Shown here: positions 4,667 to 13,399 of the stretch, one piece after another
Position numbering within the stretch: position 1 is the first letter of the stretch
Layout of the letters: every line of letters begins with the position of its first letter
DNA from: Candidatus Equinaster intestinalis
Lineage (GTDB): Bacteria; Bacillota_A; Clostridia; Oscillospirales; Acutalibacteraceae
Assembly (NCBI GenBank): GCA_018065375.1
Contig: JAGHTJ010000087.1
Span: 1-13,399 of the forward strand
Direction of reading: 5' to 3'
Length of the DNA: 13,399 bases
Notes under the pieces: model-generated
Told to the model about the DNA's origin: nothing
The model's input: only the letters and a program-made list of their open reading frames with translations
Databases searched by the model: none
Program-made: the position numbers and the translations under genes

Positions 4667-4680
4667 TTGTTAAAAGCTTA

Positions 4681-4717
4681 AAACCTGCTGTTTCAATTTG
4701 AAACGGCAGGTTTTTTT
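4681..4717 (+). terminator. Rho-independent terminator of the two-component/HtrA operon
   Basis: A 15-bp stem (4681-4695 with 4699-4713, one T-G wobble) with a 3-base loop, followed by a T-run to 4717. It ends only 2 bases before the Spo0A box of the next operon. Confidence 0.9.
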
Positions 4718-5599: not shown

Positions 5600-6319
5600 A
5601 TGTTCGATAAAATTAAAAACGCGATTACATATCTTTTGGTAAAGCTCGGTCTTATAAAGGCGGTTTACTATATAAACGGGCCCGAAACTCTGCCGCAGCC
5701 GCTCACTGCCGAAGAGGAAAAGGAGCTTATAGATAAACTTGAAACATCACCGGGGTATGCAAAAAATGAACTTATTGTTCATAACCTGCGGCTTGTGGTT
5801 TATATTGCGCGCAAGTTTGAAACAAATGCTACCGGTGTTGAAGATTTAATTTCAATAGGTACAATCGGGCTTATAAAAGCCGTAAATACTTTTTGCCCGC
5901 AAAAAAACATTAAGCTCGCAACCTATGCGTCTCGCTGCATTGAAAATGAAATACTCATGTATCTGCGCAAAAGCGCATCGCAAAAATCGGAAATTTCTTT
6001 CGATGAGCCGCTTAATATCGATTGGGACGGCAATGAACTTTTATTATCCGATGTTTTGGGCAGCGATTCGGATGAAATCGGCAGTAAAATCGAGCAGGAT
6101 GATGAAAAAACTCTGCTTTTATATCTTATTGATAATCTTTCCGCACGCGAAAAGCAAATTATTGAAATGCGATTTGGCATTAACGGCAGGCAAGAGCTTA
6201 CTCAAAAAGAGGTTGCAGATAAGCTCGGTATATCGCAGTCCTACATATCAAGGCTCGAAAAAAGAATAATAGATAAACTGAAAAAGCAGATTGAAAAAGA
6301 AAATATGGCTGAAATATAA
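5600..6319 (+). CDS. sigE: RNA polymerase sporulation sigma factor SigE (pro-sigma-E)
   Basis: A 239-residue early mother-cell sigma factor made as an inactive precursor. The amphipathic pro-sequence covers about residues 1-23. The conserved junction [14 protein letters not shown] marks the SpoIIGA cleavage site, by analogy with Bacillus between Y23 and Y24. Region 2 is nearly identical to the family ([17 protein letters not shown], then [20 protein letters not shown]), as is [20 protein letters not shown]. Region 4 ends with the helix-turn-helix [20 protein letters not shown]. The ribosome-binding site GAGAGG 5588-5593 lies within the end of spoIIGA. In many sporeformers sigG follows sigE directly; here the next gene is mgtE on the other strand, so sigG must be elsewhere. 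Its product is the likely activator of the spoIVA promoter at 9348-9376. Confidence 0.97.
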
Positions 6320-8000: not shown

Positions 8001-8030
8001 TACTGTTATGCTAAATGGGGGAATATGTAT

Positions 8031-9344
8031 ATGTTAAAAGTTTTGAAATTCGGCGGCAGTTCATTAAGTGATGCCGCGCAGTTCAAAAAAGTTGCAGATA
8101 TAATTAAAGCCGAAAAGGAAAGAAAATATATTGTTGCTTCTGCTCCCGGCAAGCGCTTTGATAATGATACTAAAGTTACCGATATGCTTCTTGATTGCTT
8201 CGATAAGTCTTATGAGACCGAATATACCGAAAAGTGCTTTGCTCAGATTACCGAAAGATTCAATAATATTATTGAAGGTCTCGGCTTGAATTTTTCGCTG
8301 GAAGAAGATTTTAATTACATTAAATCTTCGCTTAAGCATCACGCGGGCAGAGATTATTTTGCAAGCCGCGGCGAGTACTTAAATGCCAAAATTCTTGCCG
8401 AATATCTCGGCTATCCGTTTATTGATGCGAGCGTTTGCATTTTCTTTAATGAGGACGGTACGCTTAACAGCGAAAAAACCAACAACATTTTAGGGGAGAT
8501 ACTTGAGAAGTACGAATATGCCGTTTTACCCGGTTTTTACGGCTCAATGCCAAACGGCACCATAAAAACATTTTCGCGCGGCGGCTCGGACATTACCGGC
8601 TCAATAGTTGCGCGCGCCGCAAAAGCCGATGTTTATGAAAATTGGACCGATGTTTCGGGTCTTTTAATGGTTGACCCCAGAATAGTTGAAAACCCGAAAA
8701 CCGTTAAAGAGATTACCTACCGTGAGCTTCGCGAGCTTTCCTATATGGGTGCAACCGTTCTCCATGAAGAGGCAATTTTCCCGGTTAAAAAAGCAGGTAT
8801 TCCGATAAATATCAGAAATACAAATGCGCCTGCCGATAAGGGGACATTTATAGTGCCCAAAGCCACAACCGAATCGAGCGAAAATGTTATTACAGGCGTT
8901 GCGGGTCTTGCAGGATTTACGGCAATATTTATTGAAAAAGCAATGATGAATGCTGAGGTCGGTTTTACACGCAGAGTGCTTGAAACACTCGAAAATCATA
9001 ACCTTTGTTTTGAACATCTGCCTTCGGGCATTGACACAATGTCAATAGTTTTGCGCAGTGATGCAATAAAAGAACTCAAGGGCGTTATCACAGCCGATAT
9101 TGTTAAAAAGGTTGAGCCCGATTCAATAACACTGTTCGAAAATCTCGCCCTTATAGCCGTTGTTGGCCGCGGTATGATCAGCAACCGCGGTACTGCCGCA
9201 AAGGTGTTTACCGCTTTGGCGGATGCCAATATCAATATCCGCATGATTGACCAGGGCTCAAGCGAGCTTAACATCATAATCGGTGTTGAAGAAAAAGATC
9301 TGAAAGACGCTATCAGGGTTATTTACAATAAATTTGTTGGCTGA
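8031..9344 (+). CDS. Aspartate kinase with C-terminal ACT domains
   Basis: A 437-residue cytosolic enzyme that phosphorylates L-aspartate with ATP, the first step towards lysine, diaminopimelate, methionine and threonine. The N-terminal amino-acid-kinase domain (about 1-280) opens with KFGGSS, contains TFSRGGSDITGS, and ends with GATVLHEEAIFP. Two ACT domains follow (about 285-350 and 365-435), the site of feedback inhibition by pathway products. The single-polypeptide layout is that of LysC/YclM-type monofunctional kinases; which isozyme cannot be decided. ATG 8031 is preferred because the GGGGG at 8017-8021 is 9 bases upstream; the in-frame ATG at 8025 is only 3 bases from it and would add two residues. 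Diaminopimelate also supplies cortex peptidoglycan and dipicolinate, so proximity to spoIVA may be functional, but promoter signals suggest separate control. Confidence 0.95.
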   Translation: MLKVLKFGGSSLSDAAQFKKVADIIKAEKERKYIVASAPGKRFDNDTKVTDMLLDCFDKSYETEYTEKCFAQITERFNNIIEGLGLNFSLEEDFNYIKSSLKHHAGRDYFASRGEYLNAKILAEYLGYPFIDASVCIFFNEDGTLNSEKTNNILGEILEKYEYAVLPGFYGSMPNGTIKTFSRGGSDITGSIVARAAKADVYENWTDVSGLLMVDPRIVENPKTVKEITYRELRELSYMGATVLHEEAIFPVKKAGIPINIRNTNAPADKGTFIVPKATTESSENVITGVAGLAGFTAIFIEKAMMNAEVGFTRRVLETLENHNLCFEHLPSGIDTMSIVLRSDAIKELKGVITADIVKKVEPDSITLFENLALIAVVGRGMISNRGTAAKVFTALADANINIRMIDQGSSELNIIIGVEEKDLKDAIRVIYNKFVG

Positions 9345-9347
9345 TAA

Positions 9348-9376
9348 GAATAAAAGCATTCCTTCGCACATATTCT
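9348..9376 (+). promoter_or_regulatory. Candidate sigma-E promoter of spoIVA
   Basis: GAATAAA 9348-9354 matches five of seven positions of the Bacillus sigma-E -35 (KMATATT). CATATTCT 9369-9376 matches six of eight positions of the -10 (CATACAMT). The spacer is 14 bases, within the usual range. Transcription would start near 9382-9384, inside the loop of the overlapping hairpin. spoIVA is a known sigma-E target in Bacillus. Reading based on consensus only. Confidence 0.5.
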
Positions 9377-9409
9377 TTACAAACGGAATAATGTGCGGAG
9401 GAATTTTTT
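9358..9409 (+). terminator. Terminator of the aspartate kinase that also covers the spoIVA ribosome-binding site
   Basis: The 5' arm 9358-9375 pairs with the 3' arm 9386-9404, giving 18 pairs with one T-G wobble, one bulged A at 9390 and a 10-base loop. A T-run at 9404-9409 leads straight into the spoIVA ATG. The spoIVA Shine-Dalgarno GGAGG (9397-9401) lies in the 3' arm and would be hidden in any transcript containing both arms. Confidence 0.85.
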
Positions 9410-10888
9410 ATGACTGCAAATCTCAATATTTATAACGATATAGCGCTCAGAACAAACGGTGATATTTATATAGGTGTTGTGGGACCCGTTCGAACGGGAA
9501 AATCAACATTTATAAAACAGTTTATGGAAAAAATGGTTTTGCCGAATATTGCCGAGGGATTTTCAAAGGAACGGGCAAACGATGAGTTGCCGCAGGCCTC
9601 CGCAGGCAGAACTATTATGACTACCGAGCCAAAATTCATCCCCGAAAATGCGGTTAAGGTTAAAATTGACGATACAGCGCAAATGAATGTAAGGCTTATT
9701 GATTGCGTTGGCTACATAGTTCCGAGCTCACTCGGTTATATTGAGGGCAACGAGCCGCGGATGGTGCGCACGCCTTGGTATGAAACTCCGATACCGTTTA
9801 ATATGGCGGCTGAAATCGGCACCAAAAAGGTTATAACAGAGCATTCCACAATAGGTCTAGTAATCACTACCGACGGCAGCATAAGCGATATTCCGAGGGC
9901 TGAGTACGCCGAGGCTGAAGAGCGGGTTATAAATGAATTAAAAGAGATAAATAAACCTTTCATTATTGTGTTAAACTGTGTTTATCCCGATTCCGACAGC
10001 GCCTTAAAGTTAGCCGCAGAGCTTTCGGAAAAATACGGTGTAGCCGTTTTGCCCATGAGCTGCGCCGATATCAGTGAAGAAAACATTAAGCAGATTTTAT
10101 CAAAGATTTTATATGAATTTCCGGTTAAGGAAATCTGCGTTTCGTATCCAAAATGGGTAAATACACTTTCTTTAGACCATTGGCTGCGCTCAAAAATCAC
10201 CGATTTTATCAAAAAAACCGCCGAAAATGTAGAGCATATCAGAGATATAGGCATTTTTACAAACTGCACAAATAATGAAATAATCGATGCTGTAAGCGTT
10301 GATAAAATCGATTTGGGCAGGGGAAGGGCAGAGGTTAAAATCTGCATTGACGCCAATCTCTTCTATAAAGTTCTTGAGGAAACCACCGGAATTGTTATCG
10401 GCGGCGAGGATGAATTGCTTGAAACCATAAACGAGCTTTCCAAAATTAAAAAAGACTATATGCGCTTTAAGGATGCACTTGACGAGGTTGAAGCTACCGG
10501 CTACGGAATTGTTATGCCGGCACTTGATGAGCTGACTCTGCAGGAACCCGAAATTATGAAGCAAGGCGGCAGATATGGCGTAAGACTCAGAGCATCGGCG
10601 CCTTCAATTCATATGATGAAAGCCAATATCACAACCGAAGTAAACCCGATAGTCGGCTCCGAAAAGCAGAGCGAAGACCTTGTTATGTATCTGCTCAGCG
10701 AATTTGAGGAAGACCCGGTTAAAATCTGGGATTCAAATATTTTCGGAAAATCTCTGCACGAGCTTGTAAACGAGGGCTTGCACGCCAAGCTTGCACATAT
10801 GCCGAGTGATGCGAGAATGAGGCTGCAGGAAACCCTTGAAAGAGTTATAAATGAGGGCTGTAACGGGCTTGTATGTATAATTTTATAA
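9410..10888 (+). CDS. spoIVA: SpoIVA, stage IV sporulation protein A (coat morphogenetic ATPase)
   Basis: A 492-residue cytosolic mother-cell protein that polymerises on the outer forespore membrane, using ATP, to form the base layer on which the spore coat assembles; it is also needed for cortex formation. The N-terminal GTPase-like fold has Walker A GPVRTGKST with K31 and a Walker B-like RLIDCVGY. Strongly conserved blocks follow, such as GRTIMTTEPKFIP and TPWYETPIPFN. The C-terminal end GCNGLVCIIL matches the membrane-proximal tail of the family. Length equals that of the Bacillus protein. The start at ATG 9410 is 8 bases from GGAGG 9397-9401. It is monocistronic, closed by the terminator at 10891, and predicted to be under sigma-E control, so it responds to the spoIIGA-sigE operon in this same window. 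Confidence 0.97.
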   Translation: MTANLNIYNDIALRTNGDIYIGVVGPVRTGKSTFIKQFMEKMVLPNIAEGFSKERANDELPQASAGRTIMTTEPKFIPENAVKVKIDDTAQMNVRLIDCVGYIVPSSLGYIEGNEPRMVRTPWYETPIPFNMAAEIGTKKVITEHSTIGLVITTDGSISDIPRAEYAEAEERVINELKEINKPFIIVLNCVYPDSDSALKLAAELSEKYGVAVLPMSCADISEENIKQILSKILYEFPVKEICVSYPKWVNTLSLDHWLRSKITDFIKKTAENVEHIRDIGIFTNCTNNEIIDAVSVDKIDLGRGRAEVKICIDANLFYKVLEETTGIVIGGEDELLETINELSKIKKDYMRFKDALDEVEATGYGIVMPALDELTLQEPEIMKQGGRYGVRLRASAPSIHMMKANITTEVNPIVGSEKQSEDLVMYLLSEFEEDPVKIWDSNIFGKSLHELVNEGLHAKLAHMPSDARMRLQETLERVINEGCNGLVCIIL

Positions 10889-12280: not shown

Positions 12281-12775
12281 TCACCGCTTGCGTATGCGGT
12301 CTGCCATAGCATATATGAGGGTAACGGCTTCGTCGCTATGGTTGAGCAGTTTTTGAACCTTTTTAAGGTTGCCGCACTCGTTGAAGTATGCCACCGCGTA
12401 AGCCTTGCGCATACTGTGCGGGGTTACGTTTTCCTTAATACGGAGCAAGCCGCAAGCCCTGCGCAAGTCCTTAAAAACGGCTTGACGGGTGCGGTGCTCC
12501 CTGCCGTTGAGTCGGTGCTCAAAGACATAATGTTGCCCCGCTATTGCTATGCCCTGCTCGTAAATTTCCTTGGGCAAACATATGTTCTTTGCTTTGCCCG
12601 TCTTTTCCTCCCGTATGGTAAAGCGGCGCTTTTTCCACTTTGCCGTTGGTATTGCGAGCACGTCGTTGATACGTAAACCCGTAACGAGCGACACCTTGCA
12701 GGCAAGGCGATTTTGCTCGGTTAAAGCACGGAGTATAAAAGCGATCTCGGTAGGCTCAGCCCATTGGCTACGCAT
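12281..12775 (-). CDS. Minimal tyrosine recombinase/integrase of a mobile element
   Basis: A 164-residue catalytic-domain-only tyrosine recombinase. It keeps R35 (GLRINDVL), a Lys in EKTGK (K58 or K61), H120 and R123 (HSMRKAYA), H146 (LLNHSDEA) and nucleophile Y155 (LIYAM). It lacks the N-terminal core-binding and arm-binding domains of phage integrases, so it is far shorter than the recombinase at 10904-11905; the size is closer to FimB/FimE-type enzymes. Start is ATG 12775 with GGGGGTGA (12787-12780) directly upstream. It lies 37 bases after the replication gene and on the same strand, so the two form one unit. It likely excises and inserts the element or resolves its multimers. The sequence is complete, with no frameshift seen. 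Confidence 0.85.
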   Translation of the reverse strand: MRSQWAEPTEIAFILRALTEQNRLACKVSLVTGLRINDVLAIPTAKWKKRRFTIREEKTGKAKNICLPKEIYEQGIAIAGQHYVFEHRLNGREHRTRQAVFKDLRRACGLLRIKENVTPHSMRKAYAVAYFNECGNLKKVQKLLNHSDEAVTLIYAMADRIRKR

Positions 12776-12789
12776 ATTTTCACCCCCTT

Positions 12790-12843
12790 TTTACTTTCCG
12801 AAAAAAGTAAACTCATTTTTCAGAGTCCCGTTTTTGGGACTCT
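12790..12843. repeat. Two hairpins at the rep/int junction
   Basis: TTTACTTT 12790-12797 pairs with AAAGTAAA 12804-12811, and AGAGTCCC 12822-12829 pairs with GGGACTCT 12836-12843; both stems are perfect 8-bp with 6-base loops. The second lies in the last codons of the replication gene. Neither has a T-run behind it on the minus strand, so they may stabilise the mRNA end or moderate expression of the integrase. Confidence 0.6.
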
Positions 12844-13399
12844 AAATCTACCCATTTGACTTTGACGTAATCGTTTTCAAAGTCCCACTCCGCCACGGGC
12901 GGAGTATGCTGATAAGCGGAGCAGTTTTTGATTATCTGTTCTTTCCCTTTGAGCCCCTGCGAAGCATAAAAAAGGTGGTGACCGCTTTCAATGGCAGATA
13001 GAGAAAGGTCTTTTGTAATGTACTTGGTTAAGTACTTGGAGCACCCCTCTTTTGAGGCTATGGGGGTACAAGTGAAATACCCGAATTTGCGGCTATATTG
13101 CTCCCAATTGTATATCTTTTCCCCGTTTTTAATGCGCTTTTTAAGGTTAAGCGGAATATTGTCTTTGGTGGAAAACTCCCTTAAATCGTCGGGGGTTAAC
13201 CCCATTAATAACCCGTGCATATGCCAAGCGCCGCGGTCTTTTGCTTTTTGGGAATTAAGGTGCGGCTCAGGTATCAAAAGATACTTGATAGGTGCGTCGG
13301 CTCGGGTGCGGTTAATGTTGCGAATAAACTGCCCTAAGTCTTTGATAAAAGCCGCAAGGTCGAAGCGGTCAGCCCTCATTTTATCGGACTGTGTGAAAG
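12813..13399 (-). CDS. HUH-type replication initiation protein, 5' end outside the window
   Basis: The C-terminal part of a rolling-circle replication initiator, a nicking enzyme that starts replication by forming a tyrosine-DNA bond. The metal-binding HUH motif is AWHMHGLLM (HMH codons at 13223-13215). A two-tyrosine motif KYLTKYITK follows, with tyrosine codons at 13034-13032 and 13022-13020. That Y-x3-Y layout is seen in Rep proteins of microviruses and some plasmids. The frame stays open to the window end through FTQSDK, and the ATG at 13379 has no ribosome-binding site, so the true start is beyond 13399. The first conserved strand of the Rep fold is therefore missing from view. A complete gene here would make the element able to replicate as a plasmid or single-stranded phage. 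No helicase domain is seen in the visible part. Confidence 0.75.
   Translation of the reverse strand, partial: FTQSDKMRADRFDLAAFIKDLGQFIRNINRTRADAPIKYLLIPEPHLNSQKAKDRGAWHMHGLLMGLTPDDLREFSTKDNIPLNLKKRIKNGEKIYNWEQYSRKFGYFTCTPIASKEGCSKYLTKYITKDLSLSAIESGHHLFYASQGLKGKEQIIKNCSAYQHTPPVAEWDFENDYVKVKWVDLESQKRDSEK

Follow-up and report, generated by a model that had tools for sequence, protein, structure and literature searches.

A promoter, an intrinsic terminator and the Shine-Dalgarno sequence nested in one leader hairpin as a probable insulator of spoIVA in a clostridial lineage

The gap of only 65 bases that separates the aspartate kinase gene lysC from the sporulation gene spoIVA in Candidatus Equinaster intestinalis holds a promoter motif, a hairpin, the Shine-Dalgarno (SD) sequence and six T. 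The hairpin, the U-run behind it, the SD buried in its stem, the promoter motif across its 5' arm and the conservation of this arrangement in a clade with different neighbouring genes are all directly visible, and we consider it probable that this nested promoter–terminator–SD module insulates spoIVA. The features concerned, all located in the window (the whole analysed stretch of 13,399 nucleotides from contig JAGHTJ010000087.1), were as follows:

5600-6319, + strand: sigE (NF006158, 349 bits, cut-off 339; TIGR02835, 330 bits, just under the cut-off of 348.6)
8025-9344, + strand: lysC, aspartate kinase, open reading frame (NCBIfam NF006540, 562 bits, cut-off 434), stop codon TGA at 9342-9344
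9348-9355, + strand: −35-like element GAATAAAA, weak alone (−0.3 bits)
9358-9404, + strand: hairpin found by folding, 5' arm 9358-9376, loop 9377-9384, 3' arm 9385-9404; kept in 5/5 leaders of the clade
9369-9376, + strand: −10 element CATATTCT, within the 5' arm of the hairpin (−10 part of the matrix, 11.7 bits)
9383 (about 9381-9385), + strand: transcription start predicted from the position of the −10 element, about 7 bases downstream of it, in the hairpin loop
9397-9401, + strand: SD sequence GGAGG, entirely inside the 3' arm of the hairpin
9404-9409, + strand: U-run (terminator tail), six T, between the hairpin and the spoIVA ATG
9410-10888, + strand: spoIVA, stage IV sporulation protein A (TIGR02836, 716.9 bits, cut-off 459.9), ATG at 9410

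Folding of the region 9340-9430 yielded −28.6 kcal/mol compared with a mean of −11.6 (sd 2.72) for its shuffled versions (z −6.25), and none of the 200 shuffles was as stable, which confirmed the hairpin with a T-run that had been proposed from the sequence alone to pair the SD between lysC and spoIVA. In the predicted structure positions 9358-9371 pair with 9391-9404 and 9372-9376 with 9385-9389, leaving a bulge at 9390. An outer A/U extension joins 9350-9356 to 9405-9411, up into the spoIVA start codon, and the A-tract of the −35-like GAATAAAA also base-pairs with the U-run. The stem of −24.0 kcal/mol is followed directly by the U-run, with six T in the last eight bases before the ATG, as expected of an intrinsic terminator. 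The generic terminator scan of the window did not return this hairpin, probably because of the bulge. Rfam gave no match at the gathering threshold in the whole window, and on this ground a riboswitch or a known leader RNA was rejected for the spoIVA leader. The stem begins 14 bases after the lysC stop codon, and ribosomes terminating there might interfere with the folding of the hairpin.

Sigma-E-type −35 and −10 elements stand before spoIVA at the right spacing, with 19 bases from ATA to CATA, and from this motif dependence on sigE may be predicted. On a matrix derived from the spoIVA promoters of other genera, whose training set was chosen by ATA-N16-CATA 30-80 bases before the start and is biased to those letters and that distance, the window promoter scored 11.4 bits (−10 part 11.7, −35 part −0.3). 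This score was reached at 1.0e-5 of 199,964 background positions of a related genome, G003. The sigma-E-like promoter of the sequence-only reading was thereby borne out as a motif, and the start predicted from it falls in the loop. The four relatives described below have the same exact spacing; three of them (L008 and L011 with 17.9 bits, L030 with 17.7) scored above all 199,964 background positions, and the 10.8 bits of L084 were reached at 1.5e-5 of them. Outside the clade ATA-N16-CATA was found before spoIVA in 56 of 77 loci when searched for 30-80 bases before the start (observed at 36-75) and was absent from 21, two of these for want of a leader. In the window and the four relatives CATA precedes the ATG by 40-45 bases, as it does in most other genera, which suggests that the promoter is old and that the hairpin arose on top of it.

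The gene for the sigma factor expected to read this promoter, sigE, lies in the same window, with a spoIIGA-like gene (score below the family cut-off) upstream of it. A strong separate terminator (4680-4714, + strand) stands between an HtrA-like gene and the spoIIGA-like gene, so that the spoIIGA-like/sigE sporulation operon, in contrast to spoIVA, lacks the nest. At the other end of the window (12281-13379, − strand) an integrase-like frame lies beside a frame with a weak, sub-cut-off match to a replication protein family, possibly the remnant of a mobile element.

To judge from the motif and the start position predicted from it, the promoter is placed in all five clade leaders so that its RNA would lack the 5' arm of the hairpin. 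In the predicted folds of the long RNA the probability of an unpaired SD was 0.002 or lower in 5/5 leaders; in the predicted short RNA it was 0.49, 0.81, 0.71 and 0.43 in four of the five and 0.09 in L008. The spoIVA AUG was mostly paired in three of the predicted short RNAs (probability unpaired 0.08 in L008, 0.03 in L011 and 0.17 in L084).

The SpoIVA scan of GTDB species genomes returned 319 loci, the best 80 of which were kept (the top ones about 75% identical). The same nest of promoter, hairpin and SD was seen in the leaders of L008, L011 and L030, as well as in L084 (76% identical), and these four together with the window are referred to as the clade. All four genomes examined of the nearest relatives' genus (G001, G002, G003 and G261) carried the nest; the window probably belongs to this genus or to a close one. 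The gene preceding the spoIVA leader is metA in L008 and likewise in L011 (a near-identical protein, judged by eye) and lysA, itself behind lysC, in L030. In L084 lysC ends about 1.3 kb upstream, and a gene resembling the lysA of L030 ends before the leader (by eye). The element therefore travels with spoIVA while its neighbour differs (metA, lysA or lysC). We rejected the view of the element as a part of lysC, and its tie to the aspartate kinase gene, assumed at the outset, had to be given up. The expected conservation of the junction was upheld for the promoter and the hairpin, kept in 4/4 relatives, and for the gene order only in a wider sense, as no relative examined has lysC directly before spoIVA. 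At the level of sequence comparison, the relatives, which could have contradicted the earlier interpretation, support it. The lysA gene, which L030 and apparently also L084 have between lysC and spoIVA, is missing in the window, where the spoIVA leader is still kept. A second SpoIVA-encoding stretch in one genome (L074 and L111, G001) is cut by the contig end before its leader.

The alignment used to compare the structures comprised few sequences (five) and a lower stem of 12 pairs. The lower-stem cells were paired in 91.7% of cases in these five sequences, versus 43-52% when one side was slid by 1 to 3 columns. Compensatory changes were present at two stem pairs (C-G to G-C and U-A to A-U). 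The covariation score was reached by 8 of 500 column shuffles and the number of doubly changed pairs by 72 of 500; the control slid by −3 gave three doubly changed pairs, more than the real stem, but was only 52% paired. The stem of L030 has one mismatch, and the upper stem of L084 is disturbed.

To define the arrangement mechanically we asked for a simple hairpin, of −12 kcal/mol or lower, whose 3' arm contains the SD, and for at least five T in the last eight bases (hereafter SD-terminator). Among the 80 leaders, taken from the best-matching loci, it was found in the window, L008, L011, L030 and L084 and in none of the other 75, so a widespread spoIVA feature was rejected; L074 and L078 were left out of the leader count because the leader is not on their contigs. 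At ten of the 75 non-clade loci the SD lies in a hairpin of −8 kcal/mol or lower, but this is weaker or lacks the U-run. A codirectional open frame of at least 90 codons lies in front of spoIVA at 61 of 80 loci (mechanical call), and in 18 of the 56 non-clade loci with such a frame the promoter is preceded by a separate terminator. At four loci of other genera (L005, L006, L007 and L019) an ordinary intrinsic terminator and, downstream of it, a distinct promoter do the same job of isolating spoIVA; unlike in the window, their terminator, promoter and SD do not overlap. Since some outside loci keep a separate terminator and, among the 80 leaders, the nest is confined to the clade, the genus appears to have fused the terminator with the leader.

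Sporulation genes must be silent during growth, yet active biosynthetic genes may end only a few dozen bases upstream of them. We propose that transcription continuing out of the upstream biosynthetic gene would copy both arms of the hairpin. Most of the read-through transcripts would end at the U-run, immediately before the ATG, and those escaping termination would keep the SD paired. During sporulation the sigma-E polymerase would initiate in the hairpin loop, and the loop-started RNA, devoid of the 5' arm, would be unable to form the terminator and would expose the SD. In this scheme we infer, from the arrangement of the motifs, the start site, the use of sigma-E, the efficiency of termination, the translation block and insulation as the selected function.

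The nest had been taken as peculiar to spoIVA, which proved too narrow: it also precedes amidase genes, some spoIIR and spoVAC genes and one yunB gene. Of 745 SD-preceded starts in G003 (933 kb in 100 stretches; the genome measures about 1.2 Mb), 14 have an SD-terminator, versus a mean of 3.27 for shuffled leaders (sd 1.77, maximum of 10 in 100 runs), and in G002 (330 kb) 7 of 324 starts do, versus 1.34 (sd 1.16), with none of 200 shuffled runs as high. The G003 matches include, besides spoIVA, SpoVAC, YunB (0.8 bits below the NCBIfam cut-off, above the Pfam cut-off) and an Amidase_3 gene; among those of G002 are again SpoVAC and the amidase, as well as a gene resembling those for D-Ala-D-Ala carboxypeptidases. 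A few of the G003 matches are doubtful reading frames, and in 3/14 (L178, L186 and L197) there is a separate terminator, to whose tail or foot the SD is paired (by eye). The arrangement is not exclusive to sporulation, as SD-terminators were also found before TspO, ECF transporter and ferritin genes, which have no evident spore role. Named spore families account for three of the 14 G003 matches, spoIVA being counted by its likeness to that of the window, versus 1 of 40 random genes (one-sided p 0.049); the enrichment of sporulation genes is only suggestive. Two genomes of the genus also have an SD-terminator before the gene for a membrane protein of the TIGR04086 family (L199 and L277).

The leader of the cell-wall amidase gene (Amidase_3) has the SD-terminator at all four loci in the genus (L212-L215), with CATA near the loop, 27-30 bases before the start. 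Elsewhere in the family 29 amidase loci were considered, of which 26 were testable; one of these has the SD-terminator (L237, in another genus), and L238 has an SD hairpin and CATA without the U-run. The best scores of the amidase leaders on the sigma-E matrix were low (3.6 bits for L212 and 2.7 bits for L214); hence only a CATA-type −10 is claimed there. The spoIIR leaders (L231-L233) have the SD hairpin in 3/3 cases and the U-run in 2/3, so that two of three carry the SD-terminator, L231 having the hairpin with only four T; the spoIIR search in G002 gave no match. These three leaders share an identical stretch of ten bases, TGTCAATATT, towards their 5' ends. Two of four spoVAC leaders have the SD-terminator; in the other two (L264 and L265) the SD hairpin is weaker and comes after a separate terminator. 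Before yunB a strong hairpin with a U-run stands directly before the start in 4/4 leaders (L271-L274), with a full SD-terminator only in L271 and no recognised SD word in L272-L274. All 13 pairs of the yunB hairpin are kept, and its covariation is not significant (reached by 120/500 shuffles), thus yunB was not accepted as a full member; the pair counts leave out the alignments of amidase leaders, which are misaligned, and of spoIIR leaders. Across the recurrence loci without L271, the nearest codirectional frame lies 46-83 bases away. An M23 peptidase gene (L201) was rejected because its hairpin is weak and absent from L221 and L222.

These data raised a tentative hypothesis of a general developmental insulator of this lineage, which might have been built separately before spoIVA, spoIIR, spoVAC, the amidase gene and perhaps yunB, with promoters of different sporulation sigma factors. 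If it is true, about 50 bases per gene would enforce the timing of expression at the end of transcription, the start of translation and the start of transcription. A single short element to stop, mute and restart would explain how small genomes keep spore genes silent, and its recurrence in one genus makes the insulator idea testable by gene comparison. The nest suggests a compact insulator part, and it is also a warning for annotation that attenuation does not necessarily follow from a terminator placed directly ahead of a start codon.

The SD-terminators before TspO, the ECF transporter and other genes with no role in spores, and the commonness of short intergenic gaps would also fit plain compaction of a small genome, with the hairpin being only the terminator of the upstream gene that drifted over the next promoter and SD, and the hiding of the SD unselected. 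We consider this unlikely: the SD lies wholly in the stem in 5/5 spoIVA leaders though the neighbour differs, and other genera keep terminator and promoter apart. The diversity of the genes in front bears on attenuation as well, in which a long RNA from a vegetative promoter in the last part of lysC would also express spoIVA once the terminator is opened by a ligand, a protein or a ribosome. Weak sigma-70-like matches do occur at 9300-9329 and 9322-9351, in a window with 46 such sites versus 30.5 expected. The leader follows different genes, however, which argues against a promoter within the upstream coding sequence, and the window has no Rfam match; we give attenuation little credence.

It is still harder to believe that the sigma-E-like motif arose by chance and that spoIVA is transcribed from elsewhere. 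Among the 75 outside loci whose leader could be read, 19 do lack ATA-N16-CATA (with a near match in three, L034, L055 and L056), and several other motif-less loci closely follow a gene, but in the clade the motif recurs at the exact spacing and the usual distance from the ATG in 5/5 leaders. The nested insulator is our preferred reading of the spoIVA leader.

Comparable leaders precede the transposase genes of IS10 and IS50, where read-through RNA folds over the SD and an inner promoter starts inside the structure. Those are mobile elements, whereas the spoIVA nest belongs to development. In the literature searched, with most subscription journals outside its coverage, we found no description of such a nest before spoIVA, and the literature search did not retrieve a description of the IS10/IS50 arrangement. 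In Bacillus subtilis a leader hairpin of 20+ pairs before sigG (spoIIIG) was proposed to block translation of the RNA reading through from the spoIIG promoter, and it cannot form in RNA from the own promoter of sigG (PMC5942855). As in sigG, a sporulation gene would have an SD hairpin limited to read-through RNA, which for spoIVA is a prediction. The accessible part of that report describes the translation block only, without mention of a terminator, and the gene concerned is sigG, read by sigma-F and sigma-G, instead of spoIVA. In bacteriophage T4 the SD of e, soc, 49 and I-TevI is hidden in long early RNA, and the late promoters yield RNA without the 5' part of the structure, which is translated (PMC3014915, PMC2988022). 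The T4 late genes belong to a phage, and a translation block is what the accessible parts of these papers describe; the spoIVA leader has in addition a predicted intrinsic terminator that extends up to the start codon. As far as these partly accessible sources go, the logic of SD hiding bypassed by a promoter is already known from the T4 late genes and B. subtilis sigG; its fusion with an intrinsic terminator and its reuse in sporulation genes look new. The spoIVA stem also carries the U-run, so that one element, as predicted, can end the read-through RNA, mute the escaping transcripts and be bypassed by a developmental promoter.
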